From Pseudomonadota bacterium (GTDB taxonomy: Bacteria > Pseudomonadota > Alphaproteobacteria > Sphingomonadales > Govanellaceae), in NCBI GenBank assembly GCA_003577275.1, contig QEVO01000006.1, positions 1-64,000 of the forward strand: a stretch of 64,000 nucleotides of DNA, read 5' to 3'. The notes beneath the pieces are model-generated. The model was not told the DNA's origin. It made no database searches and saw nothing but the letters and a program-made list of their open reading frames with translations. The first letter of the stretch is position 1. The number at the start of each line of letters is the position of its first letter. A program made the translations under genes and the position numbers. This document shows positions 2-37,581 of this stretch, one piece after another.

Positions 2-1927
2 AAAGCCTATTTAAGGCGGGTTTTAAAGACCGTTCCTGCCCCGGTTACGCCGGCCGAGCCACCGCAAGCGGCGGCAGAGCTGCAGGACTGGCAGCGCCGG
101 GTGATGGAAGCGCGCGCCACAATCCTGTCCGAAATCGACCGGCTGACGCTGATCACGTCGCGCAACCAGGCGGTGAAGACCGTTATCGAGGCGGCGAAAC
201 GGGGCGAGCTGCGCCCCGATCTGATGGCCATGGTGGAAGCGGCCAACGCCAAGTCGGGCGCTGGAAGAACGCTGTCGCGCGGCAGGATTTACGAATGGCT
301 GCGGTTACGCACCAAGCATGGCGTCGAAGGGCTAGCCCCGCGCGCCCAGCCCGTCAAGGGAACGCCGGAGTGGGCGTCCGCCCTGATGGACCTTTACGCC
401 CGGCCGCAAAAGCCGAGCCTTGCCTATTGCGTCGAGCGCCTGCAGGCGGAAGCCCCGAATTTGGCCCCGTCCTACGCCCAGGCGGCGCGCTTTGTGCGCA
501 ACCTGGACGCGATTACCAGGAACCAAGGCCGGATGGGGCCGCGCGAACTGAAGCGCCTTAAGGCTTTCGTGCGGCGGGACACGTCCGAGCTATGGCCGAC
601 GGCGGTTTATTCGGCTGACGGCCATACCTTTGACGCCGAGGTTGCCCATCCCTTGCACGGCAAGCCGTTCCGGCCGGAAATCACCACGGTGATCGACATT
701 TTCACCCGCCGGGTGGTGGGCTGGTCGGTGGCGTTGGCGGAGGCGACCTGGGCGACCATGGACGCCATCCGCCATTCGTTCGAGACGTCCGGGATTTGCA
801 CCATCTGGTACGTGGACCGCGGCAAGGGCTTCAACAACGCGGTTTTTGACGCCGACGTGACCGGGTTTTTGGGCCGGTTCGGCGTCACCAAGCAAAACTC
901 GCTGCCCTACAATTCTCAGGCGCGCGGGGTGATCGAGCGGGTGCATCAAAGCTTGTGGGTGCGTGGTGCCAAAACGCTGCCCACCTACATGGGCGACGCC
1001 ATGGACGGGGAAGCGCGCAACCGCGCCTTCAAGATCACGCGGCGGGATATCAAAGCCACCGGGCAATCGCGGCTTTTGATGCCGTGGGCCGACTTCATGG
1101 CGTGGTGCGCCGCGCAGGTGCTCGCCTATAACCAGCGGCCACACACGAGCCTGCCGAAAAAGCGCAGTTACCTTGCGGGCCGGTGGGAACACATGAGCCC
1201 CAATGATTTATGGGGCCAGTGCTTTTCGGACGGCTCTTTTACCCCTGACTTGGTTGACCCCAGTCAAAGCGACCTTTTCCGCCCCTACATGGCGCGGACC
1301 GTGAGCCGGGCAGAGGTCAAGTTGTTTGGCAACACCTACTTCGCGCCGCAACTGGAAGCTTATCACGGCGACCAGGTGCTGGTGGGCTACGACATCCATA
1401 ATGCCGATAAAGTGTGGGTGCGGGACAAGGACCAGCGTCTGATCTGCGTCGCCACCTTCGGCGGCAACCGCCGGTCTTACTTCCCGGTGTCGGCCATGGA
1501 TCAGGCGCGCGAGAAGCGCGCGCAGGGCCGCCTGCTGCGGCTGGTTGAGAAAGAGCGCGAGGTTCAAGAGGAGCTGGACCCCGACGCCTTCCTGGAAGCC
1601 GTCAACAAGCCCTTGACAGCGGAAGAAATCGAGATCGGAGACGCGGTTTACGCTCAGATCGAGGCGCGATCAGCGGAAGCGGAAGAAAAACCGGCATCAC
1701 ACCTGGCGCTGGTGGATGAACGGCCTGAATTCAACACGGAATTTGAATGGGCGCAGTGGCTGTCGTTGCACCCCGATAAAGCCGAAAACCTGGATCGCGA
1801 ATTCTTGGAGCAATGGCTGCGCATTCCATCATTCGTGCGCTTCCTGCAGGTCAATCGCGTCGACGTCCCAACCTTGAAGCGGATCAGGGACGCCGACGCC
1901 AAAGAGTGTGCAACACTAGAGGAGTAA
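2..1927 (+). CDS. MuA-like DDE transposase, 5' end outside window
   Basis: Catalyses integration and replicative transposition of the phage genome, as MuA does. The frame is open to the left edge of the window, so the true start is upstream; the first internal start is GTG at 101, which would give 608 residues (MuA has about 660). Numbered from that GTG, the DDE triad of the rve-type core is D173 (SADGH), D239 (YVDRGKG) and E279 (GVIERVHQ). A helical DNA-binding part precedes the core and a Mu-type C-terminal domain with a charged tail follows. The MuB-like ATPase begins 8 bases after the stop, the normal A-B order. The family is certain from motifs and neighbours; the missing N-terminus should carry the end-binding domains. 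Confidence 0.95.
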   Translation, partial: KAYLRRVLKTVPAPVTPAEPPQAAAELQDWQRRVMEARATILSEIDRLTLITSRNQAVKTVIEAAKRGELRPDLMAMVEAANAKSGAGRTLSRGRIYEWLRLRTKHGVEGLAPRAQPVKGTPEWASALMDLYARPQKPSLAYCVERLQAEAPNLAPSYAQAARFVRNLDAITRNQGRMGPRELKRLKAFVRRDTSELWPTAVYSADGHTFDAEVAHPLHGKPFRPEITTVIDIFTRRVVGWSVALAEATWATMDAIRHSFETSGICTIWYVDRGKGFNNAVFDADVTGFLGRFGVTKQNSLPYNSQARGVIERVHQSLWVRGAKTLPTYMGDAMDGEARNRAFKITRRDIKATGQSRLLMPWADFMAWCAAQVLAYNQRPHTSLPKKRSYLAGRWEHMSPNDLWGQCFSDGSFTPDLVDPSQSDLFRPYMARTVSRAEVKLFGNTYFAPQLEAYHGDQVLVGYDIHNADKVWVRDKDQRLICVATFGGNRRSYFPVSAMDQAREKRAQGRLLRLVEKEREVQEELDPDAFLEAVNKPLTAEEIEIGDAVYAQIEARSAEAEEKPASHLALVDERPEFNTEFEWAQWLSLHPDKAENLDREFLEQWLRIPSFVRFLQVNRVDVPTLKRIRDADAKECATLEE

Positions 1928-1935
1928 TCATACAC

Positions 1936-2694
1936 ATGAGACGCACTTTCGTCAAAATCGATAATGTCAACCGCTTTTTGGCTGCCTTCACGGCGCTTGA
2001 AAACCGGGGCGCGCAGGAATGTTGCCTGATGGTGATTGATGGCTTGCCGGGCCTGGCAAAAACATCCGTCACCGAGTGGTGGGCCGCCGAAAATGATGCT
2101 GTGTTCGTGCGCGCCAAATCCGGCTGGACCGGCAATTGGATGTTAAGCGACCTGCTCACCGCGCTTAATGTGGTGCCGCGCCATTCCTTCGAAGCCAAAT
2201 TCGAGCAGCTTCTGGTCGCCCTTGGCCAGCGCCAGCAGGAAGCGATGCTGGCTGGACGATCCTTCGCGGTGGTGATTGATGAGATCGATCACATCTGCCG
2301 TCGGGAGAAGATGTTGGAGCCGCTGCGCGATCTGACCGATCACTTGCAAACGGTGCCGATGATTTGGGTCGGCATGGGCAAGGTGCGGACAAACCTGACG
2401 TTGTTCCCGCAAATTGCGTCGCGCGTCGCGCAATACGTGCAGTTCACTCCGGCATCGATGGCTGACACCCGCGCCCTGGTGGAAGGCTTGTGCGAAGTGC
2501 CGGTGGCCGATGACCTCATCGAGTATCTGCATCGTGTGTCCAAGGGCCGCATCCGTGAAATCAAGGAAGGCATCATGGCTATCGAGCGCGTCGGCAAGCT
2601 CGCTCGCGGCAAGACGGTGGACCGCGCCATGATGGTCGGCAAGGTCTTGCTCAACAGCCGCGATACCGGAGAACCCATTAAGGTGGAGGCGTAA
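1936..2694 (+). CDS. MuB-like AAA+ ATPase, transposition target activator
   Basis: 252 residues. It should bind target DNA with ATP and activate the MuA transposase, as MuB and TnsC do. Walker A is G36-LPGLA-K42-T43 and Walker B is AVVID115E116IDH. The reading frame is open from 1813, but I place the start at ATG 1936 because GAGGAG at 1917-1922 is a good ribosome site and the transposase stops at 1927. It is shorter than Mu MuB (about 312 residues), mainly at the N-terminus, where MuB has a small helix-turn-helix domain. It is followed without a gap by the next early gene. Confidence 0.93.
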   Translation: MRRTFVKIDNVNRFLAAFTALENRGAQECCLMVIDGLPGLAKTSVTEWWAAENDAVFVRAKSGWTGNWMLSDLLTALNVVPRHSFEAKFEQLLVALGQRQQEAMLAGRSFAVVIDEIDHICRREKMLEPLRDLTDHLQTVPMIWVGMGKVRTNLTLFPQIASRVAQYVQFTPASMADTRALVEGLCEVPVADDLIEYLHRVSKGRIREIKEGIMAIERVGKLARGKTVDRAMMVGKVLLNSRDTGEPIKVEA

Positions 2695-11459: not shown

Positions 11460-13066
11460 GCGCCGCGCCCGCCCACATCCCGAAGGCGGAACTGCCGCCG
11501 TTGCTTTTGGACCAGGGCTTGCCCTCGGTCCTTTTGCCGTATCAGGGCAAGGTGCTGTCCACCACTTCGACCATCGCGCTGACCGTCATCGAGAAGTCGC
11601 GGCGGATCGGCGTCACCTGGGCGTTGGCGGCGGCCGGCGTCTTGACCAGCGGCGCGGCGCGCAAAGCGGGCGGCATGGATACGCTCTATCTCGGCCCATC
11701 CTTGGACATGGCGCGGGAGTTTATCGACGCCGCCGCCATGTGGGCGAAAGCGTTCCTCCCCGCCGCGTCCGAGGTGGAAGAATTCCTGTTCAAGGACCAT
11801 CATTCGGAAGGCGATAAGGACATCCAGGCATTCCGCATCAAGTTCGCCTCGGGCTTTGACATCGTGGCGCTGTCCTCCGCGCCGCGCTCCTTGCGCGGGC
11901 GGCAAGGCTTCGTCATCATCGATGAGGCGGCGTTCCATGACGCGCTTGATGAAGTCTTGAAGGCCGCCTTGGCTCTGATCATGTGGGGCGGCCGGGTGGC
12001 GGTGGTATCGACCCACAACGGCGACCTCAATACCTTCAATCAGTTGGTCAAGGAAATCCGCACCGGCAAACGGCCCGGCGCGCACCTCCGCGTCGACTTC
12101 GACGACGCCTTGAAGGATGGGCTCTATCGCCGCATCTGCCTGGTCTTGGGCAAGGAATGGACCGCCGAGGGTGAGGCCGCCTGGCGCCAGGAGGTGGTGG
12201 ATTTCTATGGCGAGGACGCGGAAGAAGAGTTGTTCTGCGTGCCCAAGGCCGGCACCGGCGCGTGGCTTTCCCGCGCGCTCATCGAGGCGCGGATGCAAGA
12301 CGGCTTGTCCGTCATTCGCTGGGAGCAGCCGGACAGCTTCACCCATGAGAGCGACCACATCCGCGAAGCGGAATGCCTCGACTTTTGCGAGCGCCATTTA
12401 AGACCCCTTTTAGCGGCGCTTGATCCCCATTTAAGAACGTCGCTGGGGAGCGACTTCGGCCGCTCCGGCGACCTATCCGTGTTCTGGCCGTTCCAGGTGC
12501 TTGCCGACACCACGCGGCGCACCCCGTTCGTTCTGGAGCTGCGCAACATCCCCTATAAACAACAAGAACAGATCCTCTACTACATCGCCAATCGCCTGCC
12601 CCGGCTGTCGGGCATCGCCATGGACGCGCGGGGCAATGGTCAGGCGCTGGCCGAATTCGCGGTGCAAAAGTACGGCAGCGGCATGGTGGAGGCGGTGATG
12701 CTGTCGACGGAGTGGTACCGCAAGAACATGCCGCTTTACAAAGCCGCGTTCGAGGACGCCACCGTCATCCTGCCGCGCGATGAAGACATCGCCTCCGACC
12801 ATCGAGCCATCGTGCTCGACAAGGGTGTGGCCAAGCTGCCGGAGAAAGGCGGGCGGCGGAAAGGTACGGACGGCAAGCAGCGGCATGGCGACGCCGCCAT
12901 CGCCGGCGCGCTGGCCTATTACGCCTCGCTCATCGATGTGCAGGTCTATAAAGTTTTAAGCACGGGCGAGCGGGTGCGGGCCTTTGATGAGCAGCCGGGC
13001 GTACAAGTCGATCAGGCCGTGGGCTTTGGCGTGGTGCGGCGCGACTTGAATTTAGGAGGATATTGA
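11456..13066 (+). CDS. Terminase large subunit, Mu gp28-like
   Basis: 536 residues. Powers headful DNA packaging and cuts the DNA. The ATPase has a Walker A variant at S48-RRIGVT-54 and Walker B VIID156E157AAF. The C-terminal RNase H-like nuclease starts with GSDFGRSGDLSVFW, supplying its first aspartate. Product length and gene order (gp27, gp28, gp29) match Mu. Confidence 0.93.
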   Translation: MSAAPAHIPKAELPPLLLDQGLPSVLLPYQGKVLSTTSTIALTVIEKSRRIGVTWALAAAGVLTSGAARKAGGMDTLYLGPSLDMAREFIDAAAMWAKAFLPAASEVEEFLFKDHHSEGDKDIQAFRIKFASGFDIVALSSAPRSLRGRQGFVIIDEAAFHDALDEVLKAALALIMWGGRVAVVSTHNGDLNTFNQLVKEIRTGKRPGAHLRVDFDDALKDGLYRRICLVLGKEWTAEGEAAWRQEVVDFYGEDAEEELFCVPKAGTGAWLSRALIEARMQDGLSVIRWEQPDSFTHESDHIREAECLDFCERHLRPLLAALDPHLRTSLGSDFGRSGDLSVFWPFQVLADTTRRTPFVLELRNIPYKQQEQILYYIANRLPRLSGIAMDARGNGQALAEFAVQKYGSGMVEAVMLSTEWYRKNMPLYKAAFEDATVILPRDEDIASDHRAIVLDKGVAKLPEKGGRRKGTDGKQRHGDAAIAGALAYYASLIDVQVYKVLSTGERVRAFDEQPGVQVDQAVGFGVVRRDLNLGGY

Positions 13067-14517
13067 TGGCTTCGACACGCGAGAACAAACCCCTCTTCGA
13101 GGAACTGGCCAACCCGGCGCAGCACAAGTCGGCTCTATATGCCGAGGCCATCACCAAGAGCGTGCTCGATGAGAAAGGCGGCGCGCGCAAGCTCTATGCC
13201 GAAATCATGCGCGACGATCAGGTGAAATCCACCTGGCAGCAGCGCACCACGCGGCTTACGTCACTGCCCTATGAAGTGGTCGCCGGCGGCGACGCACCCC
13301 AGGACCAAGAGGCCGCCGACTTCATGGAGCAGCAACTCAAAGACGTCGGCTTCCCTCTTGTTGTGGAAAAGATGCATCACGGCCTGTTCTACGGCTTCGC
13401 GGCGGCGGAGATGCTGTGGGGCGTGGAGAGCGGCAAAATCATCATCGAGGACATCAAGGTGCGCGACAAGTTCCGCTTTCAGCTTGAGGTCGGCGACAAG
13501 CTCACCCTGAAAGCGGCCGGCGGCTCCGGTGTTGTCATGCCGGAGCGCAAGTTCTGGCTCTTTAAAGCGCCGGCCGACAACGACGACGTGGCGCACGGCC
13601 TGCCGTTGGCGCACTGGCTCTATTGGCCCTGCTTCTTCAAGCGCAACGATATCCGTCTGTGGCTGTTGTTTCTAGACAAGTTCGGCGCGCCATCGACCAA
13701 GGGCAAGTACGCGCCCAACGCCACTGACGCGGAGAAAAAGATGCTGCTTGAAGCGGCGGCGGCGCTCCGCTCGGACGCGGCGGTGGTAATCCCCAACACG
13801 ATGGAGCTGGAACTGATCGAAGCGGTGCGCTCGGCCAGCGGCAACTACGACGACGTTTATGACCGCATGGACGCGGCCATCGCCAAGGTGATCCTGTCGC
13901 AGACCATGACCACCGATGACGGCGCGTCGCTGTCTCAGGCCAAGGTGCACGAGGGCGTCGCCGACGCGGTGGTCAATTCGGACGCACGTCTGTTGGCGGC
14001 GAGCTGGAACACCGGCCCCGGCTGGTGGCTCACCGCATGGAACTTTCCGAACGCCAAGCTGCCGCAGTTGCGCTTCATCACCGAGGAGCCGGAAGACCAG
14101 GCGCAGGCGGTGGCGCGCGACCAGGCGCTCCACGCCATGGGCTGGAAGCTCACCGAAGACAAGGTGCGGGAGACCTATGGCGAGGGCTACGAGCGGGCGG
14201 AAGCAGCGCCGCCGGCGCCAGGACAACCGCCGCAAGCCGCCGCCGATGAACCGCTATCGCTGTCGGAAGCCGACGCCTTGGACATCGTCGACCGTTTTTT
14301 GATCGACGAATTGAACGCCGATTGGGCGGAGCTGATGACGCCGGCGATCGATCCCATTCTGGCGCTGGCCGATGGCGCCACATCCTTCGATGACTTCATC
14401 GGCAAGCTGGCCGCCACGCTTTCAGAGATGGATGTGGCCAAGCTTACGGAACACCTGGCGCGGGCGGCGTTCAATGCGCGGCTCGCCGCCGTGGCGGAAG
14501 TGGACGGCGATGCATAG
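13066..14517 (+). CDS. Portal protein, DUF935 / Mu gp29-like
   Basis: 483 residues from ATG 13066, with AGGAGG at 13053-13058 and a one-base overlap with the terminase stop; a TTG one codon earlier is less likely. It has the DUF935 features FYGFAAAEMLWG and FLDKFGAPSTKGKYAPNA. It forms the dodecameric ring through which DNA enters the head. The last 100 residues are acidic and helical. Confidence 0.92.
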   Translation: MASTRENKPLFEELANPAQHKSALYAEAITKSVLDEKGGARKLYAEIMRDDQVKSTWQQRTTRLTSLPYEVVAGGDAPQDQEAADFMEQQLKDVGFPLVVEKMHHGLFYGFAAAEMLWGVESGKIIIEDIKVRDKFRFQLEVGDKLTLKAAGGSGVVMPERKFWLFKAPADNDDVAHGLPLAHWLYWPCFFKRNDIRLWLLFLDKFGAPSTKGKYAPNATDAEKKMLLEAAAALRSDAAVVIPNTMELELIEAVRSASGNYDDVYDRMDAAIAKVILSQTMTTDDGASLSQAKVHEGVADAVVNSDARLLAASWNTGPGWWLTAWNFPNAKLPQLRFITEEPEDQAQAVARDQALHAMGWKLTEDKVRETYGEGYERAEAAPPAPGQPPQAAADEPLSLSEADALDIVDRFLIDELNADWAELMTPAIDPILALADGATSFDDFIGKLAATLSEMDVAKLTEHLARAAFNARLAAVAEVDGDA

Positions 14518-14526
14518 GAGAGCGGC

Positions 14527-14802
14527 ATGGCAAGCGCGGATATGAAAACGGCGCAAATTGAGCGTGCGATGGAGCGCCTTAGGGCAGCACGGGCCATGGC
14601 GGATATGTTGATCGCGGAATACCCTGATTTTTGCGCGGCCCTGCGACCTCATATGTTGACCGGGAACATCGAAGGGCTCGCTAAAGTGATCGCTGAATTT
14701 GCCGACAGTAGTCGTGGCCCGGACAGGGAGTTGGCGGAATCTTTTTCTGAACTCGCGGCCGTCATGGATTTTTTTGTGTCAGGCGGAAAACACCATGCCT
14801 GA
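14527..14802 (+). CDS. Hypothetical protein between portal and MuF
   Basis: 91 residues, starting 10 bases after the portal stop behind AGGAGAG (14516-14522) and overlapping the MuF start by 8 bases. All-helical and mildly acidic (IERAMERLRAARAMADMLIA, AESFSELAAVMDFF). It has lower GC than its neighbours. Mu has no gene here. If the MuF C-terminus is a toxin, a small acidic neighbour could be an immunity protein, but immunity genes normally lie downstream and nothing else supports this. Confidence 0.55.
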   Translation: MASADMKTAQIERAMERLRAARAMADMLIAEYPDFCAALRPHMLTGNIEGLAKVIAEFADSSRGPDRELAESFSELAAVMDFFVSGGKHHA

Positions 14803-16930
14803 AATTGACCTCAAACCCCTGCCGCCGGAGGAGGCGGTCAAGTTCTTCCGCGACAAGGGCTATGCCTTTTCCTTCAACTGGAAGGACATGTGGCAGGAAG
14901 AACATGGCCGCGCCTTCACGGTGGCCAAGGCCATGCGGCTCGACATCCTGCAGGACATTCGCCAGTCGGTGGACAAGGCGCTGGCCGATGGCATCACCTT
15001 CGAGCAGTTTCGTAAAGAATTGACGCCTATTCTGCAAAAGAAAAACTGGTGGGGGCGGCAGACGATGACCGACCCCAAGACCGGCGAGACCATCATGGCC
15101 CAGCTTGGCAGTCCGCGCCGGTTGCGGATCATCTATGACACAAACTTGCGCATGGCGCGCGCGGCGGGGCGGTGGGAGGCGGCGCAGCGCCTGAAAAAGC
15201 GCCGGCCCTTTTTACGCTATACCGCCGTCCTCGACAGCCGCACCCGGCCGGAGCATCGCGCTTGGCACAACACCGTGCTGCCGGTGGATCATCCCTTCTG
15301 GCAGACCCACTATCCGCCCAACGGCTGGAACTGCTTCCCGGCCGAGACGGTTGTGCGCTGTGCCGCCAAGCTGGGGTTAAAAGCCTGGTATGCGGGGGAA
15401 ATGGTGGAGCTGCACACGGCCCTCGGGCACCGATTGACCGTCACCGCCAACCATCCCGTATTGACCAGCCGTGGATGGATTGGCGCGCACATGCTGCAAA
15501 AAGGCGACAAGCTGATTGGCGCAAGCGGCGATGTCGATGCCGCGCTTCATGGGATCGTAGACAATGAGCATCCTCCAGCCCGCGCTGAAGATTTGTTCGA
15601 GGCGCTCGCGGCGGAGGGCCTTCGCATCGCTCCAATGGCGTCGGACGATTTCCACGGCGACGCGCGGTTCATGGAAAGCAAAGTCCACATTGCGGGCGCC
15701 GATGGCGCCCTGATGCACATAGTCAAGGCAGCGCGCCGTAAGCTCATCCGCGAAAGCGGGTTCCAAGCGGCACTGCATCGCGGGATTGAAGCCACCGACG
15801 TTGCCGTTAGCGCGCCGCAGACTGCGGCGGTCATTGGTGATGCCATGCTTGCGCAAAATACCGCTGACGGTCGGCTTTGCCATGCCGAGCCGTCGCGCGA
15901 TGGCGGCGCTGCTCATGAGCCCCGAGCGGTAAAGGGACAAGACCTGGCGCTCGGTTTTAGCATTGCGCGCATCGGCGGCGATCCAGGCGGCCTTGAGCTG
16001 CCGCTCGATACCTCCAGGCGCGCTTTTGATCGCCCGCCATTTCATCTTCTCGGCGGCCGCACGGCCGCGCAGGGTGACGCCCGCGCGTCCGAGCGCGCGG
16101 GCGAGGGCGGGGCGGCTGCATCCCGCCTCTTCCGCCAACTGCTTAAGGCTAACCCCGCCACGGTAGCGCGCAACGAGGTTATCGAGATTCGAAAATTCCA
16201 ATGGACGGGTCATGTCTACGACTTCACGACGGAATCCGGCCTGATTATGGCGGGCGGAATCATTGTAAGCAACTGCCGCTGCATCGTGCAATCGCTGAAT
16301 GAGCGGGATCTGGCGCGGGTGGGCTTGAAGCCGTCGGCCGCCGCGCCGGACTTCAAAACCCGCACCCTGATCAACAATCGCACAGGAAAAGAGATCGCGG
16401 TGCCGGACGGCATCGATCCGGGCTTCGGCTACAATGTGGGCCGGGCGGCGATGGCAGGGAGCAATGACGCCCTGACGGCGAGCGTCATCAGGGCTGCCCC
16501 AAGCCTCACCGGGGCGGCGCGGGCGACGGTGCGCGAGGTGGTGGAGTCCAGGGCATTTGAAAAGTTCATAACGGATGCTGCGGGGACAATGCCCGTCATG
16601 GTCATCGGCGATGAATTAAGGGCTGCCATTGGCGCAAAAAACCCGGTTGTCGTTTTGTCGGATGAAACCATGCTCAAGCAGCATGCGGCGCATCCGGAGC
16701 TCACCGTGAAGGATTACCGCCGCCTGCCAGCCATCGGGGAAGCTCCAGATCTCGTTATCCAAGATGGAAAAAATACGCTCGTCTTCATTCAGCGCGGGGA
16801 TGTGTGGTTTTCCGCCGCCATCAAGGCGACCAAAACCGGCAAGGCGAATTTCTTGACCAGTTTCCGCCGCACGAACGCCGAGGACGTGGAACGGCATAAG
16901 CGCCGGGGCAAGGTCTTGTTTGGGGAATGA
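14795..16930 (+). CDS. MuF-type minor head protein with intein and toxin-like C-terminus
   Basis: 711 residues from ATG 14795 (the frame is open to 14699, but that is the shadow of the previous gene). Residues 1-179 are the N-terminal MuF domain (gpF/gp30) with ALVDSRTRPEH-like YTAVLDSRTRPEHRAWHN and HYPPNGWN. An intein of 314 residues follows (15332-16273), and the motif resumes as CRCIVQSLN. Splicing would leave 397 residues with an intact NGWNCRC. The last 125 residues resemble the phage-borne Barnase/EndoU/ColicinE5/RelE-like nuclease tails found on MuF polymorphic toxins. The protein should sit at the portal and may be injected with the DNA. Confidence 0.88.
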   Translation: MPEIDLKPLPPEEAVKFFRDKGYAFSFNWKDMWQEEHGRAFTVAKAMRLDILQDIRQSVDKALADGITFEQFRKELTPILQKKNWWGRQTMTDPKTGETIMAQLGSPRRLRIIYDTNLRMARAAGRWEAAQRLKKRRPFLRYTAVLDSRTRPEHRAWHNTVLPVDHPFWQTHYPPNGWNCFPAETVVRCAAKLGLKAWYAGEMVELHTALGHRLTVTANHPVLTSRGWIGAHMLQKGDKLIGASGDVDAALHGIVDNEHPPARAEDLFEALAAEGLRIAPMASDDFHGDARFMESKVHIAGADGALMHIVKAARRKLIRESGFQAALHRGIEATDVAVSAPQTAAVIGDAMLAQNTADGRLCHAEPSRDGGAAHEPRAVKGQDLALGFSIARIGGDPGGLELPLDTSRRAFDRPPFHLLGGRTAAQGDARASERAGEGGAAASRLFRQLLKANPATVARNEVIEIRKFQWTGHVYDFTTESGLIMAGGIIVSNCRCIVQSLNERDLARVGLKPSAAAPDFKTRTLINNRTGKEIAVPDGIDPGFGYNVGRAAMAGSNDALTASVIRAAPSLTGAARATVREVVESRAFEKFITDAAGTMPVMVIGDELRAAIGAKNPVVVLSDETMLKQHAAHPELTVKDYRRLPAIGEAPDLVIQDGKNTLVFIQRGDVWFSAAIKATKTGKANFLTSFRRTNAEDVERHKRRGKVLFGE
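15332..16273 (+). other. Intein in MuF head protein
   Basis: Begins with Cys1 (CFPAETVV, block A) and has block B as TANHPVLTSRGW with the T38-x-x-H41 pair. It ends with block F (GHVYDFTTESGLIMAGG) and block G (IIVSN), directly followed by Cys+1. The penultimate residue is Ser instead of the usual His; such inteins can still splice but often more slowly. Excision joins NGWN to CRC and restores the most conserved MuF motif. Between blocks B and F, about 230 residues on this strand show no LAGLIDADG or HNH motif; the opposite strand encodes a nuclease there. A bacterial intein-like (BIL) domain is the alternative, but Cys1, Asn314 and Cys+1 favour a true intein. Confidence 0.88.
15377..16213 (-). 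CDS. Antisense homing-endonuclease-like gene inside the intein
   Basis: 278 residues from ATG 16213; the frame is open to 16291. Residues 21-46 (GVSLKQLAEEAGCSRPALAR, then ALGRAG) and 98-123 (GLMSSAAIARRLGMAKPTVS, then GILRKH) are two helix-turn-helix units. Residues 170-220 match a Vsr/DUF559-like PD-(D/E)XK core: NVD177FAF, VAVE188I, RRHW, then RRERLEQ and GWRMLIVYD. The gene sits wholly within the intein, between its splicing blocks, in the register complementary to the + frame. Over 165 codons (15560-16054) my hand count gives about 76 % GC at the minus wobble position and 64 % at the plus wobble position, favouring this strand. TTGCAC-18-TACAAT (16291-16262) could be its promoter. No good ribosome site is seen. 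The last 35 residues are antisense to intein block B and may not be functional. Confidence 0.7.
   Translation of the reverse strand: MTRPLEFSNLDNLVARYRGGVSLKQLAEEAGCSRPALARALGRAGVTLRGRAAAEKMKWRAIKSAPGGIERQLKAAWIAADARNAKTERQVLSLYRSGLMSSAAIARRLGMAKPTVSGILRKHGITNDRRSLRRANGNVGGFNPAMQCRLEPAFADELTARCLDYVHQGAIGARNVDFAFHEPRVAVEIVRRHWSDAKALRRERLEQIFSAGWRMLIVYDPMKRGIDIAACANQLVAFLQHVRANPSTAGQYGMVGGDGQSVPEGRVQLHHFPRIPGF
16553..16927 (+). other. Toxin-like C-terminal domain of MuF protein
   Basis: Last 125 residues of the MuF protein, from AFEKFITD to the end. Landmarks are VVVLSDETMLKQHAAHPEL, TVKDYRRLP, IQDGKNTLVFIQR, IKATKTGK and FLTSFRR. This layout (a Lys/His-bearing helix, a beta-hairpin with an invariant-looking Lys, and an F-x-R strand) is that of the PBECR-type nuclease tails of MuF polymorphic toxins; the match is by eye. 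It would be an RNase-like effector delivered with phage DNA or acting on competing cells. Confidence 0.5.
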
Positions 16931-30649: not shown

Positions 30650-33600
30650 ATGGGCCGCGTCGTCCTCATCGAAGCCTGGCCGCGCCGGCCCAGCGATGGC
30701 GCCACGGTGCCGTTCCGAGTGATCGGCGGCGCACCTATCCGCGCCGATTATTTTGGCGTGCAATGGCTGCCGGCGCTGGCCACGCTGCCGCGCTTTGAAA
30801 CCCGGCTGGGGTTTGACGGCCGGGTGTTCGGCGCCGGCGCGGTGAACAGCGTGGGCGACATCTCCGTGGCGCTGGGATCGACCGCGCTTGACGCCTACCT
30901 GGAATACCTGTGGGCCAATGCGGCGGTCACCATCAAGGAAGGCAATACCGACGACGCCGACGGCGCGTTTGTGACGACCTGGACTGGCCGCGCCGCCACC
31001 GCCAAGGCGGCCAACAAGCGGATGATCATCACGCTCGCTGATCCGGCGGAGGAGCTGCGCCGCCCGGTGTTGACCAGCCGCTATGCCGGCAGCGGCGATC
31101 TGGAAGGCCCGGCCGATTTAAAAGGCGAGCTGAAATACAAAGGCTGGGGTGTTTGCGAGAACGTACCGACGCGATTGATCGATCCCGCCTATAACATCTG
31201 GCAGGCCAATGATGGCGCGGTGACCTTTGGCGCGATCCGCGACGGCGGCGTGGCGTTCTCGTCAGTTTCCAATGTCGCCGATCTGGCGGCGTTGCGCGCC
31301 GCTGTCATCGCCGCCGGCGCGGTTGTCACCTGCAACGCGCTGGGATTGATCCGCCCGTGGACCGCCCCGAAATATAAGCTGACCGCCGACATCACGGTGG
31401 GATCGGCGACCACGGCGGCCGACATCGCACAGGCCATCGTGACGGCGCGCTCGACCTTAACCTTCGCCAGCGGTACGGTGGCCGCGTTCAACGCACTCAA
31501 CAGCGCCGCGATCAGCGTGTTCATCGATGATGAACGCACGGTGGCGGAAGCGCTCGATCAGATATTCGCCGGTATCGGCGCGTGGTGGAAGCTTAATGCG
31601 TCGGGTCAGATCGAGCTCGGGCGATGGGAATTCGGCGGCGGCGCACAAACCTTCGAAGCGGAGGTGGCCGACATCGCCAGAGTTGATATTTTGGCCCCTA
31701 CCTACCGCCGCCAGGTGGGATACCGCCGCAATTATGCGCCGCTGTCGGACGGTGAAATCGCGGCAGCGATCTTGAGCGGGGATATTTCGGATATCGGAGC
31801 CTTCGCGCCGATTGCATTGGTCAACGACGCCGGCTGCACGATCACCGGCAATGTGGTGGTGGCGACGGGGGCAACGGGAGCATGGGGCGTCGCGGCGGTA
31901 CATAGCGTCAATGCGTATGCTGGCGGCGTCTTCGTGGAGTTCATGCCGGCGCAGGCCGATAAGCAATTCATGGTGGGTCTGAGCGTCACGCCGACCACGG
32001 ATAACAGTTACGCCAGCATTAACTTTGCGATTTTTTGCGCGGCGACCGGCGACTTACAGGTCTATGAGGGTGGCGTCCAGAAATATTCATCCAGCACTTA
32101 TGTTGCTGGCGACGTGTTGGCGGTGACATTCGACAACGTGAATGTTCGGTACTGGAAAAATGGCGTGGTGATTTACACCAGCGCCCAACCGCCGGCCGTG
32201 GGGGCCAAGCTTTATCTTGACAGCGCCTTTTTGAGTCTGAACGGTAAGGTCACCATTCTCGGCTTCGGTCCTTACACGGCGAACGATGTGTACGGCAGGC
32301 CGCCATCACAGGTTCTGTTGGGCCTGACGGAAATCCACGAAACATTCAGCCGCTACGCCTCGGTTTCCGACATTCCCTGGACATTCACTGGCAGCGGTGA
32401 ATTATCATTGGTGTCCAGCACCGACAGCGGCGGCAAGGCGCTGCGGTGCGGCAACAACAGCGGTAATGATCACGTTCAAGGCATCTGCAATCAGTGGCTG
32501 GATTACAGCCCGGAAGATTTGTACATGGTGTCGTTTGATATCGAGATCGAAGCGGTCAGCTCCGGCGTGATGTATTTTGGCGTGAAAGGGGAAGACGTAG
32601 ACGGAAATAACATCATATCTGACGCCGGCACTTACCACTATCAGGCGGGCATAGCCGAAGTTGAGAGCTCTACCGGCAGGTTTAAGTACATAGGGTATAT
32701 TCGGGGATTGGCCGCCGCCGGCGGCAGCACGGGATACGAGGCGGGCGCGCCGGATAATCCACGTCCCATGAAAACTGGGGTCGTGCGGATAAAACCCATG
32801 TTCATCGTCAACTATTCAGCGGCGGCGGGGCAAATCAAAGCCCATGAGGTTCGGCTGCGGAAGGTGGTGGACGCCACGCCGCTTTATCGAGGAAACTGGT
32901 CGTCGGCCACCACATACTACATTAATGACGCGGTGGATTATCAGGATCGCCGCTTCATGGCGCTCATCAAAAACACCAACGTCGCGCCACCCGCCTCAGA
33001 AAGTTCCAGCGCCACGTGGCTTTACATCGGCAAGCAGCCCGCCGAGGCCGGCGCAACGCGCAATGATATTTACAATCAAACCAGCGACCCAGGCGCGGTG
33101 GCTAATGGAAGTTATTGGTACAGCTCATCGACAAAATTGCTCAAGCGGCGGGAGAGCGGCGCGTGGGTGACGGTGGGTAATGCTTTCGACAACACAAACT
33201 CGTTGACTGACGGCGCGAACCTCGGTGGCACGGCGACATGGAGCGGTGTCAGCGGCACCGGCAAGCCGGAAGATTATTCCACCCGCAACGACATTTACAA
33301 TCAGACCTCCGATCCCGGCGCGGTGGCTAATGGAAGTTATTGGTACAGCTCAAGTACCAAGCTTTTGAAGCGGCGCGAGAGCGGCGCGTGGGTGACGGTG
33401 GGTAATGCTTTCGACAACACAAACTCGTTGACTGACGGCGCGAACCTCGGTGGCACGGCGACATGGAGCGGGGTTTCCGGCACCGGTAAACCTACGGACT
33501 ATGCCACGCGCAACGATTTTTACAATCAAACCAGCGACCCAGGCGCGGTGGCCAATGGCAGCTATTGGTATTCATCGTCGACAAAATTGCTCAAGCAGCG

Positions 33601-34129
33601 ATTGAGCGGCGCGTGGGTGACAGCGGCCAGCTACAACACCGGCGCGCTCGCTGACAAGAATACGGTGGGAAACGCTGATGTTGACGACGACGCCATCAGC
33701 ACGCCAAAAGTGCAAGATGGTGCCGGTGCTATCGTAGCGGCGGCCTACACATCGGGCAGCATCACCACGTCGAGCGATAGTGTATGGAGTGTGGCGCAGC
33801 AAGTCACGGTGACTGACAGCACCGCCGAAATCATTTCCATCAGCTTCACATTTCACGCCATAAATTTGGGCGGCGGCTGGACGAAAAATTCGGTGCGGGT
33901 GCGACGTAATTTAGGTGGGGTTGATACCTATGTTTGGGGAGGCAGCGCCGGCAAGCCTTTCATTATCGATAACGACGGCATGGCGGTATCGGGAGGATGC
34001 ACCGATACGGTGGCGGCCGGCGATGATCCAACGTATTACGTCGAGTTTAAAAAATATACTGGTTACACCGGCAGTACTTTAAGCGTTTCGGAGCGGCATA
34101 TGGTGGCGATCGAGGATAAATTCGCATGA
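30650..34129 (+). CDS. Tail tip / host-specificity protein with carbohydrate-binding and repeat domains
   Basis: 1159 residues, starting directly after the tape measure stop. Residues 1-380 are the tail hub-like part (GRVVLIEAWPRRPSDGATVP ... QVGYRRNYAPL). Residues 395-545 form a LamG/SPRY-like sandwich (GVAAVHSVNAYAGGVFVEFM). Residues 550-740 are a carbohydrate-binding-like module. A short CBM5/12-like unit follows (YRGNWSSATTYYINDAVDYQ), then three 75-residue repeats and a C-terminal beta domain. The role is receptor binding; the repeated part is likely the exposed fibre. The Mu-like phages of B3 type have a similar central fibre. Confidence 0.82.
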   Translation: MGRVVLIEAWPRRPSDGATVPFRVIGGAPIRADYFGVQWLPALATLPRFETRLGFDGRVFGAGAVNSVGDISVALGSTALDAYLEYLWANAAVTIKEGNTDDADGAFVTTWTGRAATAKAANKRMIITLADPAEELRRPVLTSRYAGSGDLEGPADLKGELKYKGWGVCENVPTRLIDPAYNIWQANDGAVTFGAIRDGGVAFSSVSNVADLAALRAAVIAAGAVVTCNALGLIRPWTAPKYKLTADITVGSATTAADIAQAIVTARSTLTFASGTVAAFNALNSAAISVFIDDERTVAEALDQIFAGIGAWWKLNASGQIELGRWEFGGGAQTFEAEVADIARVDILAPTYRRQVGYRRNYAPLSDGEIAAAILSGDISDIGAFAPIALVNDAGCTITGNVVVATGATGAWGVAAVHSVNAYAGGVFVEFMPAQADKQFMVGLSVTPTTDNSYASINFAIFCAATGDLQVYEGGVQKYSSSTYVAGDVLAVTFDNVNVRYWKNGVVIYTSAQPPAVGAKLYLDSAFLSLNGKVTILGFGPYTANDVYGRPPSQVLLGLTEIHETFSRYASVSDIPWTFTGSGELSLVSSTDSGGKALRCGNNSGNDHVQGICNQWLDYSPEDLYMVSFDIEIEAVSSGVMYFGVKGEDVDGNNIISDAGTYHYQAGIAEVESSTGRFKYIGYIRGLAAAGGSTGYEAGAPDNPRPMKTGVVRIKPMFIVNYSAAAGQIKAHEVRLRKVVDATPLYRGNWSSATTYYINDAVDYQDRRFMALIKNTNVAPPASESSSATWLYIGKQPAEAGATRNDIYNQTSDPGAVANGSYWYSSSTKLLKRRESGAWVTVGNAFDNTNSLTDGANLGGTATWSGVSGTGKPEDYSTRNDIYNQTSDPGAVANGSYWYSSSTKLLKRRESGAWVTVGNAFDNTNSLTDGANLGGTATWSGVSGTGKPTDYATRNDFYNQTSDPGAVANGSYWYSSSTKLLKQRLSGAWVTAASYNTGALADKNTVGNADVDDDAISTPKVQDGAGAIVAAAYTSGSITTSSDSVWSVAQQVTVTDSTAEIISISFTFHAINLGGGWTKNSVRVRRNLGGVDTYVWGGSAGKPFIIDNDGMAVSGGCTDTVAAGDDPTYYVEFKKYTGYTGSTLSVSERHMVAIEDKFA
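33059..33621 (+). repeat. Three direct repeats of 225 bases in the tail tip gene
   Basis: Units begin at 33059, 33284 and 33509, exactly 225 bases (75 codons) apart; the third stops after about 113 bases. Each encodes RND-I/F-YNQTSDPGAVANGSYW then YSSSTKLLK and GAWVT. Unit 1 and unit 2 are almost identical in their second halves, while unit 1 and unit 3 share exact DNA in the first part (TTTACAATCAAACCAGCGAC). The pattern suggests exchange between copies. Confidence 0.95.
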
Positions 34130-35346: not shown

Positions 35347-35709
35347 ATGACCGCCGCCGATCCAGCCCTGATCAACTTCCTCAAAGAGGTCGAGCGCTTC
35401 GGCGTCTATGAGGATGCGGCGGTCAAAGCCAAATGGGGCGATGATGCGGTGGAAGTCGTCCAGTCCTCGTTGCTGCGCGACGCTGCCGCCGCCGCCACGG
35501 AAGCGCAGCGCCAGCAAGGCATCACCGGCAACGTTCTGGCGCGCGATCAAGTGCGCTTGAAGGGCATCTTCGAAGGGCTGGAAGGCAAGACCGTCACCGT
35601 GAAATATCCGCGCTTAGGATACGCCGCCGGCCGCAGCTTCCTGGTGGCGGCTGCGGCCCATGACCGCGACAGCAACGAGACCATCCTGGAAGGGTTTGTG
35701 ATCTTATGA
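35347..35709 (+). CDS. Hypothetical tail-region protein, 120 residues
   Basis: Starts directly after the membrane protein stop (TGA, then ATG). Helical N-terminal half with an Ala-rich stretch and a beta C-terminal half (KGIFEGLEGKTVTVKYPRLG). ATGA overlap with the next gene. No family recognised. Confidence 0.6.
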   Translation: MTAADPALINFLKEVERFGVYEDAAVKAKWGDDAVEVVQSSLLRDAAAAATEAQRQQGITGNVLARDQVRLKGIFEGLEGKTVTVKYPRLGYAAGRSFLVAAAAHDRDSNETILEGFVIL

Positions 35710-36491
35710 GCAATCTCTTGATTTTAGACCCCATCGATCTTGCCAGCGGCTGGATCACGGCGTCGCATGAGGTGGCGGGATTTCCGGCGACGAACGTGAT
35801 CCATAATCAGCCGCTGGTGGTGTGGAAGGCATCCTCGGGGGCGACTTATAACCTGACCATCGACTTGCAGGCCGATACGCCGATCGACACGGTTTACCTG
35901 GGCTATACCAATGCGGCGGCCAGCACCACATGGCAGATCGTAGGGGCGACGGCGGCGCAGGGCACGGCCTATCTGACCAATCCGGGCGCGGTGATGATGG
36001 CGACCGCCACGCTCAGGGCCAGCGAGGCGCTGGGGCCGTATTACCATGCCTTCTGGACCGGGACGTCGAAGACGGTGAGGTATCTGCGCCTCATCGTCAC
36101 TCACAGCGGGGAGTTTTCCGCCGGCCGGCTGCTGATCGGCAGCGCCTGGCGGCCGACCTGGAATTATGAGTGGGAGGCCGGGCGCGGCGTGGTCGATACG
36201 TCGCTGAAAGAGCGCTTGCGCGGCGGCAATCTCGATATCGACGAGCGGGGGATTGTTGCCGAGTGGACGATGGCGCTTGGCGATCTGACCGACGCCGAAG
36301 TCCGCGCGCTGTGGAAGATTAAGAAGCAGCACGGGGAAAGCCGGCCGCTCCTGTTGTGTGAAGACCCGGATTCGGGCGTCGCCGGGCTCAACGAGCGGTT
36401 GCACTACGGCGTGTTCAAGGAGCTGACGCGCTATAGCCGGACGGCACCCGACAAAGTGCGGTGGGAGATGACGGTTGAAGACTGGCTCTGA
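35706..36491 (+). CDS. Tail protein with discoidin-like sandwich
   Basis: 261 residues. SHEVAGFPATNVIHNQPLVV with IDLQADTPIDTVYLGYTNAA and KTVRYLRLIVTHSGEFSAGR are the pattern of a galactose-binding (F5/8-type) sandwich; the C-terminal part (GGNLDIDERGIVAEWTMALG ... KVRWEMTVEDWL) resembles distal tail components. Probably sits at the tail tip with the large protein at 30650. Confidence 0.7.
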   Translation: MSNLLILDPIDLASGWITASHEVAGFPATNVIHNQPLVVWKASSGATYNLTIDLQADTPIDTVYLGYTNAAASTTWQIVGATAAQGTAYLTNPGAVMMATATLRASEALGPYYHAFWTGTSKTVRYLRLIVTHSGEFSAGRLLIGSAWRPTWNYEWEAGRGVVDTSLKERLRGGNLDIDERGIVAEWTMALGDLTDAEVRALWKIKKQHGESRPLLLCEDPDSGVAGLNERLHYGVFKELTRYSRTAPDKVRWEMTVEDWL

Positions 36492-37056
36492 TGTCATCGG
36501 CCCCTATCGGCTGGCATTGGCCGACACGCCGGAGCTGATCCACGTAGCCTATAAGCTGCGGCATCACGCCTATTGCATGCGCGCCGGTTTTGAGCGCCGG
36601 GATATGGCCGATATGGAGGTGGATGGGTTTGACCGCCGCGCCGTGCATGTGTTGGTGTTCTACCGCGACTGGCCGCTGGCCTGCGCGCGGCTGATCCTGC
36701 CGCCGGTGCTGCCGCTCTTACATCACTGTCCTGATGTACCGCTTGAGCCAGGCGCGGCCGAGGTGAGCCGGTTTTCCATCCCGGCCCCTACCGCCCGCCA
36801 GACGTTCAATGTCATCACGGTGCTGCGGTTGTTGGGGCAAGGGGTTTGGGAGGCCGGTCAGCGCCACCGCGTGGCATCCTATTACCTGCTGATGAAGCCG
36901 GCCTTGAAGAGCCTTCTAAAGCGCGCCGGTTTTGAGTGTGAGCCGGTCGGCGCGCCGGTGGAGCTGCACGGTCGCCGGATTCCGACACGCTTCAGCCAGA
37001 TCACCGCCGCAGAGCGGGAGGACGGGGTGTTCCAGCACCCCGAGCCGCGAGCATGA
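36475..37056 (+). CDS. LuxI/FeeM-like N-acyltransferase cargo gene
   Basis: 193 residues from TTG 36475 (no in-frame ATG near; overlaps the tail gene by 17 bases). The invariant residues of the LuxI and FeeM/PEP-CTERM N-acyltransferase fold appear at proper spacing: R29 (LRHHAYC), D50 and D53 (EVDGFD), R72 (ARLIL), E96 and R99 (EVSRF). The C-terminus GFECEPVGAPVELHGRRIPT is more like FeeM/exosortase-associated enzymes than classical LuxI. It would transfer an acyl chain from acyl-ACP or acyl-CoA to an amine. No LuxR partner is nearby. It sits at the right end, where Mu-like phages carry dispensable genes such as mom. Confidence 0.72.
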   Translation: MKTGSDVIGPYRLALADTPELIHVAYKLRHHAYCMRAGFERRDMADMEVDGFDRRAVHVLVFYRDWPLACARLILPPVLPLLHHCPDVPLEPGAAEVSRFSIPAPTARQTFNVITVLRLLGQGVWEAGQRHRVASYYLLMKPALKSLLKRAGFECEPVGAPVELHGRRIPTRFSQITAAEREDGVFQHPEPRA

Positions 37057-37392
37057 ACCTCGCACGACCACAACCGGCCTTGTCATGGCCGTCCCCGCGC
37101 CTGCCGGCAGGCGCGGGAAGTCTTATCGGGAAACCATTAATGGAGTATCACCGCGTTGATCCTGTCCGCCCCGTCGCCCCATATCTGGGCGGCAAACGTC
37201 AGCTTTCAGGCCGCCTGGCCCAGATGATCGACGGCATCGACCATGCGGACGGAGGTAAGGCAGGTCTTTCGGGACTTTAAAATCCAGGGCGTGGCCGTAT
37301 CCTACACGGCGGGCGGTGCGGCCAAGACCAAGCCGGCGCGCGAGGTGATCATTACGGGCCTTAAAAGGGCTCTTAAAAGGGATGTTTTATGA
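37053..37392 (+). pseudogene. Internally deleted Dam-type adenine methylase
   Basis: From ATG 37053 (ATGA with the gene before) or ATG 37140, the frame reads VRPVAPYLGGKRQLSGRLAQ, the N-terminal SAM-binding motif of D12-class N6-adenine methylases, then stops at 37278. From about 37246, in another frame, the sequence reads EVRQVFRDFKIQGVAVSYTA and PAREVIITG up to TGA 37390, the C-terminal end of the same family. The catalytic DPPY part and some 180 codons are missing, so the gene cannot make an enzyme. Confidence 0.75.
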
Positions 37393-37401
37393 CCCGGACG
37401 C

Positions 37402-37450
37402 TTGTCCTGAATGGCGCGTAAAATTGTCCCGAATGGCGCGCGCCGCTACA
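37402..37450 (+). repeat. Paired 17-base direct repeats, probable prophage right end
   Basis: TTGTCCTGAATGGCGCG (37402-37418) and TTGTCCCGAATGGCGCG (37424/37425-37441) are direct repeats 23 bases apart with one mismatch. A terminal CTACA follows (37446-37450). Mu places two adjacent 22-base transposase sites a few bases inside a right end that finishes in CA, so the layout fits a MuA-type right end. A remnant of an IS21-like insertion sequence end is the alternative. The left end is not in the window, so the 5-base target duplication cannot be checked. Confidence 0.55.

Positions 37451-37505: not shown

Positions 37506-37581
<76 letters not shown>

Follow-up and report, generated by a model that had tools for sequence, protein, structure and literature searches.

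What does an enzyme of the LuxI/FeeM superfamily do in the tail operon of a Mu-like phage? The window analysed here comprises the first 64000 bases of contig C8, from an alphaproteobacterial genome. It carries a Mu-type prophage from base 1 to ~37450 (Table 1), and the last intact gene of this prophage is an open, uninterrupted reading frame. A preliminary description of this DNA saw in it a LuxI/FeeM-like acyltransferase at the right end of the prophage, coupled to the tail operon and accompanied by no luxR gene, considered that such an enzyme could make a signal or modify host lipids, and suggested placing it in a phylogeny and looking for it in related prophages. We consider it probable, with some reserve, that the gene is a conserved late cargo of alphaproteobacterial Mu-type phages, encoding a GNAT-fold N-acyltransferase that makes an amphiphilic N-acyl compound.

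The window protein matched the Pfam profile Acetyltransf_5 over its gathering score (E 8e-5). Its best-scoring curated model was exosort_acyl of NCBIfam (TIGR03694, E 3.7e-25), at ~88.8 bits and thus below the curated cut-off of 111.95. This model was matched by all five phage proteins of our set (the window protein and those of the four relatives described below), the window protein giving the best E-value. With Autoind_synth of Pfam, the window protein stayed below the gathering score (13.5 bits vs 24). The Pfam FeeM profile matched the other four phage copies (best E 0.0011) and left the window protein unmatched at E 1; OlsB gave weak matches in three of the five copies (best E 0.0014). No PHROGs family convincingly holds the protein. 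Searches with phmmer weakly matched it to LasI, EsaI, and RpaI, and a profile built from the five phage proteins retrieved LasI (8.8e-7), EsaI (4e-6), and TofI (7e-6) from the PDB. The AlphaFold model of the window protein has a mean pLDDT of 80. When compared with the PDB by Foldseek, it matched LasI best (1.8e-8), then TofI, RpaI, BjaI, and FeeM among other GNAT proteins, with E 9e-6 for the FeeM structure 2G0B. The FeeM-domain match L060 did not retrieve 2G0B when used as a sequence query.

The polar residues that are diagnostic of the fold had been described as six. Their conservation stands, their number does not: we found seven. The LuxI-type framework R-D-D-R-E-R is present in the window protein as R29, D50, D53, R72, E96, and R99, to which E48 has to be added. 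All seven are invariant in the five phage, four solo-type, 26 exosort-type, and 15 LuxI proteins, except for one LuxI in which E96 is replaced by D. Position 39 separates these proteins differently, with F in the window copy and the exosort-type proteins, and W in LuxI and the other four phage copies. The homology of the window protein to LuxI/FeeM-type enzymes exceeds chance by far. Acetyltransf_5, exosort_acyl, the five-phage profile, and the structural match to LasI agree with the acyltransferase first proposed, and membership of the LuxI/FeeM/exosort_acyl superfamily is secure.

Table 1. Features of the prophage and of its right border (window coordinates).
Feature	Position	Strand	Remarks
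MuA-type transposase	101..1927	+	Mu-transpos_C, rve
MuB/TniB-like ATPase	1813-2694		
Lysozyme	8990		
Mu-type portal protein	13063..14517	+	Portal_Mu E 1e-93
MuF head protein	14699-16930	+	contains an intein
304-aa ORF within the MuF intein	15377-16291	-	antisense; two helix-turn-helix matches
Baseplate-hub/tail protein	30650..34129	+	N-terminal match to phrog_8917; weak match to the N-domain of phiJL001 Gp84
120-aa tail-region gene	35347..35709	+	matches the C-terminal part of phrog_8917; syntenic in relatives
Last tail-region gene, 261 aa, phrog_8610	35706..36491	+	directly 5' of the acyltransferase in five of five phages
LuxI/FeeM/exosort-type N-acyltransferase, 193 aa	36475..37056	+	TTG start; R29 E48 D50 D53 R72 E96 R99
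Dam-type DNA methylase, N-terminal remnant	37146..37247	+	residues 9-42 of relatives; tblastn E 9e-11
Dam-type DNA methylase, C-terminal remnant	37252..37365	+	residues 235-276 of relatives; tblastn E 8e-5
Inferred phage right terminus	37402..37450		two TTGTCCYGAATGGCGCG copies (37402, 37424), then GCGCGCCGCTACA ending at 37450
Host tRNA-Lys(CTT)	37506..37581	-	3' end lies 55 nt beyond the terminus

The siphovirus-like tail region of the prophage extends to 36491. The acyltransferase overlaps its last gene by 17 nt on the same strand, with no terminator-like or promoter-like site found between the two, which agrees with the described coupling to the tail operon. In the relatives, translation starts at an ATG adjoining the upstream stop (36491); this ATG is out of frame in the window copy, which apparently starts at TTG 36475, within the preceding gene. 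The motif GGTGGGAG lies ~7 nt upstream of this TTG and is a plausible Shine-Dalgarno sequence. Translation must proceed from TTG 36475, or else the start of the window copy is lost.

At the other end of the prophage, the contig starts 100 nt upstream of the MuA-type transposase gene, hence the left end of the phage is not in the window. To the right, the acyltransferase gene ends 394 nt inside a common phage terminus (...GCTACA at 37450), in accordance with the right-end position given in the preliminary description. We take 37450 as the terminus because the IMG/VR contig L053 ends precisely with this layout, which is also present in two other relatives (L037 and L055). Between the acyltransferase and this terminus lie two remnants of a Dam-type methylase in different frames, from which an internal deletion has removed ~190 codons. 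The methylase is intact in four related phages.

Given the TTG start inside the upstream gene and the broken methylase, the window copy may be decaying. It might even be a relic that is no longer expressed and degrades along with the methylase, as the internal deletion and the out-of-frame ATG would lead one to expect. This concerns the window only and is compatible with any other reading for the relatives. We find it doubtful, if conceivable, even for the window, where the 193-codon frame is intact and keeps all framework residues, its GC3 (0.78) is near that of the tail neighbour (0.82), and the TTG is preceded by the plausible Shine-Dalgarno sequence.

In phage Mu, the right end is occupied by mom. 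The acyltransferase could accordingly be a positional analogue of Mom, i.e., a GNAT-fold DNA modifier that protects phage DNA together with the adjoining Dam-type methylase, which is the next gene in the four relatives. A BFVD search does list a Mom of a Salmonella phage (E 4e-4), but many unrelated GNAT proteins equal this score. Moreover, the protein has no sequence match to Mom, the Pfam and PHROGs scans revealed no Mom-like family, no PADLOC family matched the acyltransferase, and the LuxI/FeeM framework residues are all retained. A role akin to that of Mom is therefore very improbable.

We found the gene in four relatives: two metagenome-assembled genomes (MAGs), one labelled Emcibacter (L036, identical with L056) and the other also alphaproteobacterial (L037, identical with L057), and two IMG/VR contigs, L053 and L054/L055. 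All four have the order phrog_8610 gene, acyltransferase, intact Dam-type methylase. Related prophages thus do carry the gene, and in five phages, including that of the window, it follows the phrog_8610 gene. At least one relative (G530) is likewise of the Mu type, and the record of L055 includes, at the far end, a gene for MuA. For the four relatives, amino acid identity is 55-70%, pS 0.65-0.85, and dN 0.25-0.40, with synonymous sites near saturation. Such identity despite near-saturated synonymous sites reveals constraint on the acyltransferase protein. The gene was kept in the same place by five related viruses, and therefore probably benefits the phage.

Outside this group the acyltransferase was hard to find. 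A single-sequence scan of viral contigs gave no match, nor did tblastn searches of 50,697 phage records with the window and L036 proteins. At E 1e-15, profile searches of 385 genomes at the class level and 398 at the phylum level retrieved no copy besides that of the window, hence this phage lineage is rare. Homologues of the phrog_8610 gene occurred in ~20 other class-level genomes. In those alphaproteobacterial loci that we examined, the ~1.5 kb around these homologues contained no acyltransferase. Where the next gene could be read, it often resembled a tail fibre gene or was a lysis gene. The acyltransferase is therefore the cargo of one phage group rather than a core tail gene.

We built two maximum-likelihood trees with phage, LuxI, exosort-type, and solo-type proteins. 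In both, the phage proteins grouped together, and the LuxI clade excluded them (99/93 and 100/99). The second tree placed them between the LuxI and the exosort-type proteins. The nearest non-LuxI lineage differs between the trees (the first has a fork at 86/68), and grouping the phage proteins with the exosort-type or the solo-type proteins was not firmly rejected by the AU test (p 0.07 and 0.08). Judging from these trees, we call the phage proteins a putative third deep lineage, outside the LuxI and the exosort_acyl clades, with closest kin that differ by tree. The phylogeny suggested at the outset thus gives them a lineage of their own.

This position bears on the idea that the enzyme is an AHL synthase, whose product would be read by a LuxR of the host or of a co-resident phage to steer lysis or lysogeny. 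There is a precedent in Phaeobacter inhibens, where lysogeny is under the control of AHLs made by prophage LuxI enzymes, of which one belongs to a Mu-family phage (PMC13345283). AHL synthases are also the best sequence and structure matches of the phage proteins, which agree with them in the seven framework residues and, for four of the five, in the LuxI-type Trp. Yet, the LuxI clade includes none of the phage copies, and F stands in place of this Trp in the window protein. As for a receptor, neither the contig of the window nor G529/G530 gave a match to Autoind_bind, in line with the described lack of luxR, but the host does encode two LuxR-type Autoind_bind genes on contig C10. The late tail operon is, furthermore, not the repressor-side location of the xre-luxR-luxI modules. 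On balance, we regard an AHL product as unlikely. The two LuxR-type genes of the host lie ~5 kb apart (G000:C10:116967-117314 and 122489-122833). The only LuxI-superfamily proteins found in this genome are that of the prophage and two chromosomal ones of the exosort and solo types: a true exosort_acyl next to PrsT on C11 (219.9 bits), and on C1 a superfamily relative of 239 aa that is common to the other genomes of the host's family.

Enzymes with the framework shared by LuxI, FeeM, and the N-acyl amino acid synthases (NAS) use acyl-ACP or acyl-CoA as the donor of an acyl chain and an amine as its acceptor. We infer the timing, substrates, product, and purpose of the phage enzyme as follows. 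After induction, the tail operon would be transcribed with the acyltransferase gene in it. The enzyme would take a fatty acyl group from acyl-ACP or acyl-CoA of the host and transfer it to an amine, with E96, which may correspond to E95 of FeeM, as putative general base within the framework of R29, D50, D53, R72, and R99. The resulting compound would be small and amphiphilic. Being made late and without a LuxR of the phage, it might serve as a surfactant-like aid in lysis or competition, or as a signal for receptors of the host.

Characterised NAS give an idea of such a product. Nas354 depends on its catalytic Glu, being inactive as the E103A mutant; N-acyltyrosines act as surfactants and are both antibiotic and haemolytic; and there is a link between NAS genes and PEP-CTERM systems (PMC4897644, PMC7293339). 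We therefore favour a product that is made late and is either an N-acyl amino acid or an N-acyl amine. The former, of the FeeM/PEP-CTERM-linked type, seems more likely than a homoserine lactone, a preference that rests on trees disagreeing over the nearest non-LuxI lineage.

The GNAT fold is versatile, and the acceptor could also be a macromolecule, such as a protein of the virion or of the host envelope, or else a host lipid headgroup like that of ornithine lipids, in which case the gene would act in lysogenic conversion or superinfection exclusion. The weak OlsB matches and the coupling to tail genes would fit such a role. However, small-molecule N-acyl synthases match more strongly, and the conserved partners of the gene are limited to tail-region genes and the methylase. 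We thus think this quite unlikely, and keep to a small N-acyl compound as the product.

How does this gene compare with known systems? With exosort_acyl it has in common the framework residues and a C-terminal GxR stretch (TofI also has GR there), but the window protein is ~80-100 residues shorter, scores below the cut-off, falls in a different clade, and is encoded in a phage tail operon instead of a PEP-CTERM/exosortase locus. The LuxI-type AHL synthases (LasI, EsaI, TofI, RpaI, BjaI) share its fold and framework and are its best PDB matches, whereas the clade, the absent luxR partner, and the Trp missing from the window copy set it apart. FeeM, an N-acyl amino acid synthase, has the same fold, and its Pfam model matches all phage copies except that of the window; its genomic setting is different. 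The xre-luxR-luxI modules of prophages, found only in Roseobacters (PMC13345283), also provide a LuxI-superfamily synthase in a Mu-family alphaproteobacterial phage, but there it is part of a lysogeny switch with luxR and xre, whereas the window gene stands alone in the late tail region. Other AHL synthase genes of phages are in the databases, i.e., an entry of Roseobacter phage RDJL Phi 2 (BFVD) and lasI of Acinetobacter phage MD-2021a, and a coral phage carries raiI with bjaR1 (PMC11309003). They too are phage-borne members of the LuxI superfamily, but the window and L036 proteins are of a different lineage, with no counterpart in the phage records searched.

Phage-borne LuxI-type genes and prophage LuxI/LuxR lysogeny modules are hence already known. 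As far as our searches show (subscription literature lay mostly outside them), the novelty is a member of a separate lineage that has no receptor and keeps a constant place in Mu-type phage tail operons. Control of lysogeny by prophage LuxI/LuxR was only recently demonstrated. If our proposal is true, phages also use acylated small molecules of their own making for purposes beyond lysogeny control.

The analysis gave three further observations. In two relatives, the gene after the methylase encodes a protein of 115 aa that contains cysteines and a DGCSGG...CxxHD stretch (L036, 7870-8217; L037, 3227-3568, reverse strand). Its PHROGs matches are phrog_6098, of unknown function, and phrog_1158, which bears the label tail assembly chaperone. 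Its CxxHD motif recalls phospholipase A2, yet it has no Pfam or PDB match.

Several inferred termini lie just outside the 3' ends of tRNA genes, namely those of tRNA-Lys in the window (55 nt), tRNA-Arg in G530 (~50 nt) and in G023 (~40 nt), and tRNA-Met in G095 (~190 nt). The loci are 37450/37506 of the window, L136, L037, and L151. The MuA of the G023 phage is related. In G040 and G020, which also have a related MuA, the stretches read contained no tRNA, and the right ends were not found there. A Mu-type transposase with a preference for tRNA-proximal targets is possible.

Finally, the MuF gene contains an intein (Intein_splicing, E 1.6e-5 on the segment; PT-HINT). The C-terminal part of the protein encoded antisense within it looks, by eye only, like a nuclease of the Vsr/DUF559 type. 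This antisense frame was found by tblastn in 67 phage records and is open, opposite a MuF/head-morphogenesis gene, in the four cases examined (Pseudomonas, E. coli, Gordonia, and Salmonella; L152-L155). The arrangement suggests an intein with a homing nuclease encoded antisense, although the sense frame is also similar, so that the antisense matches may mirror it.
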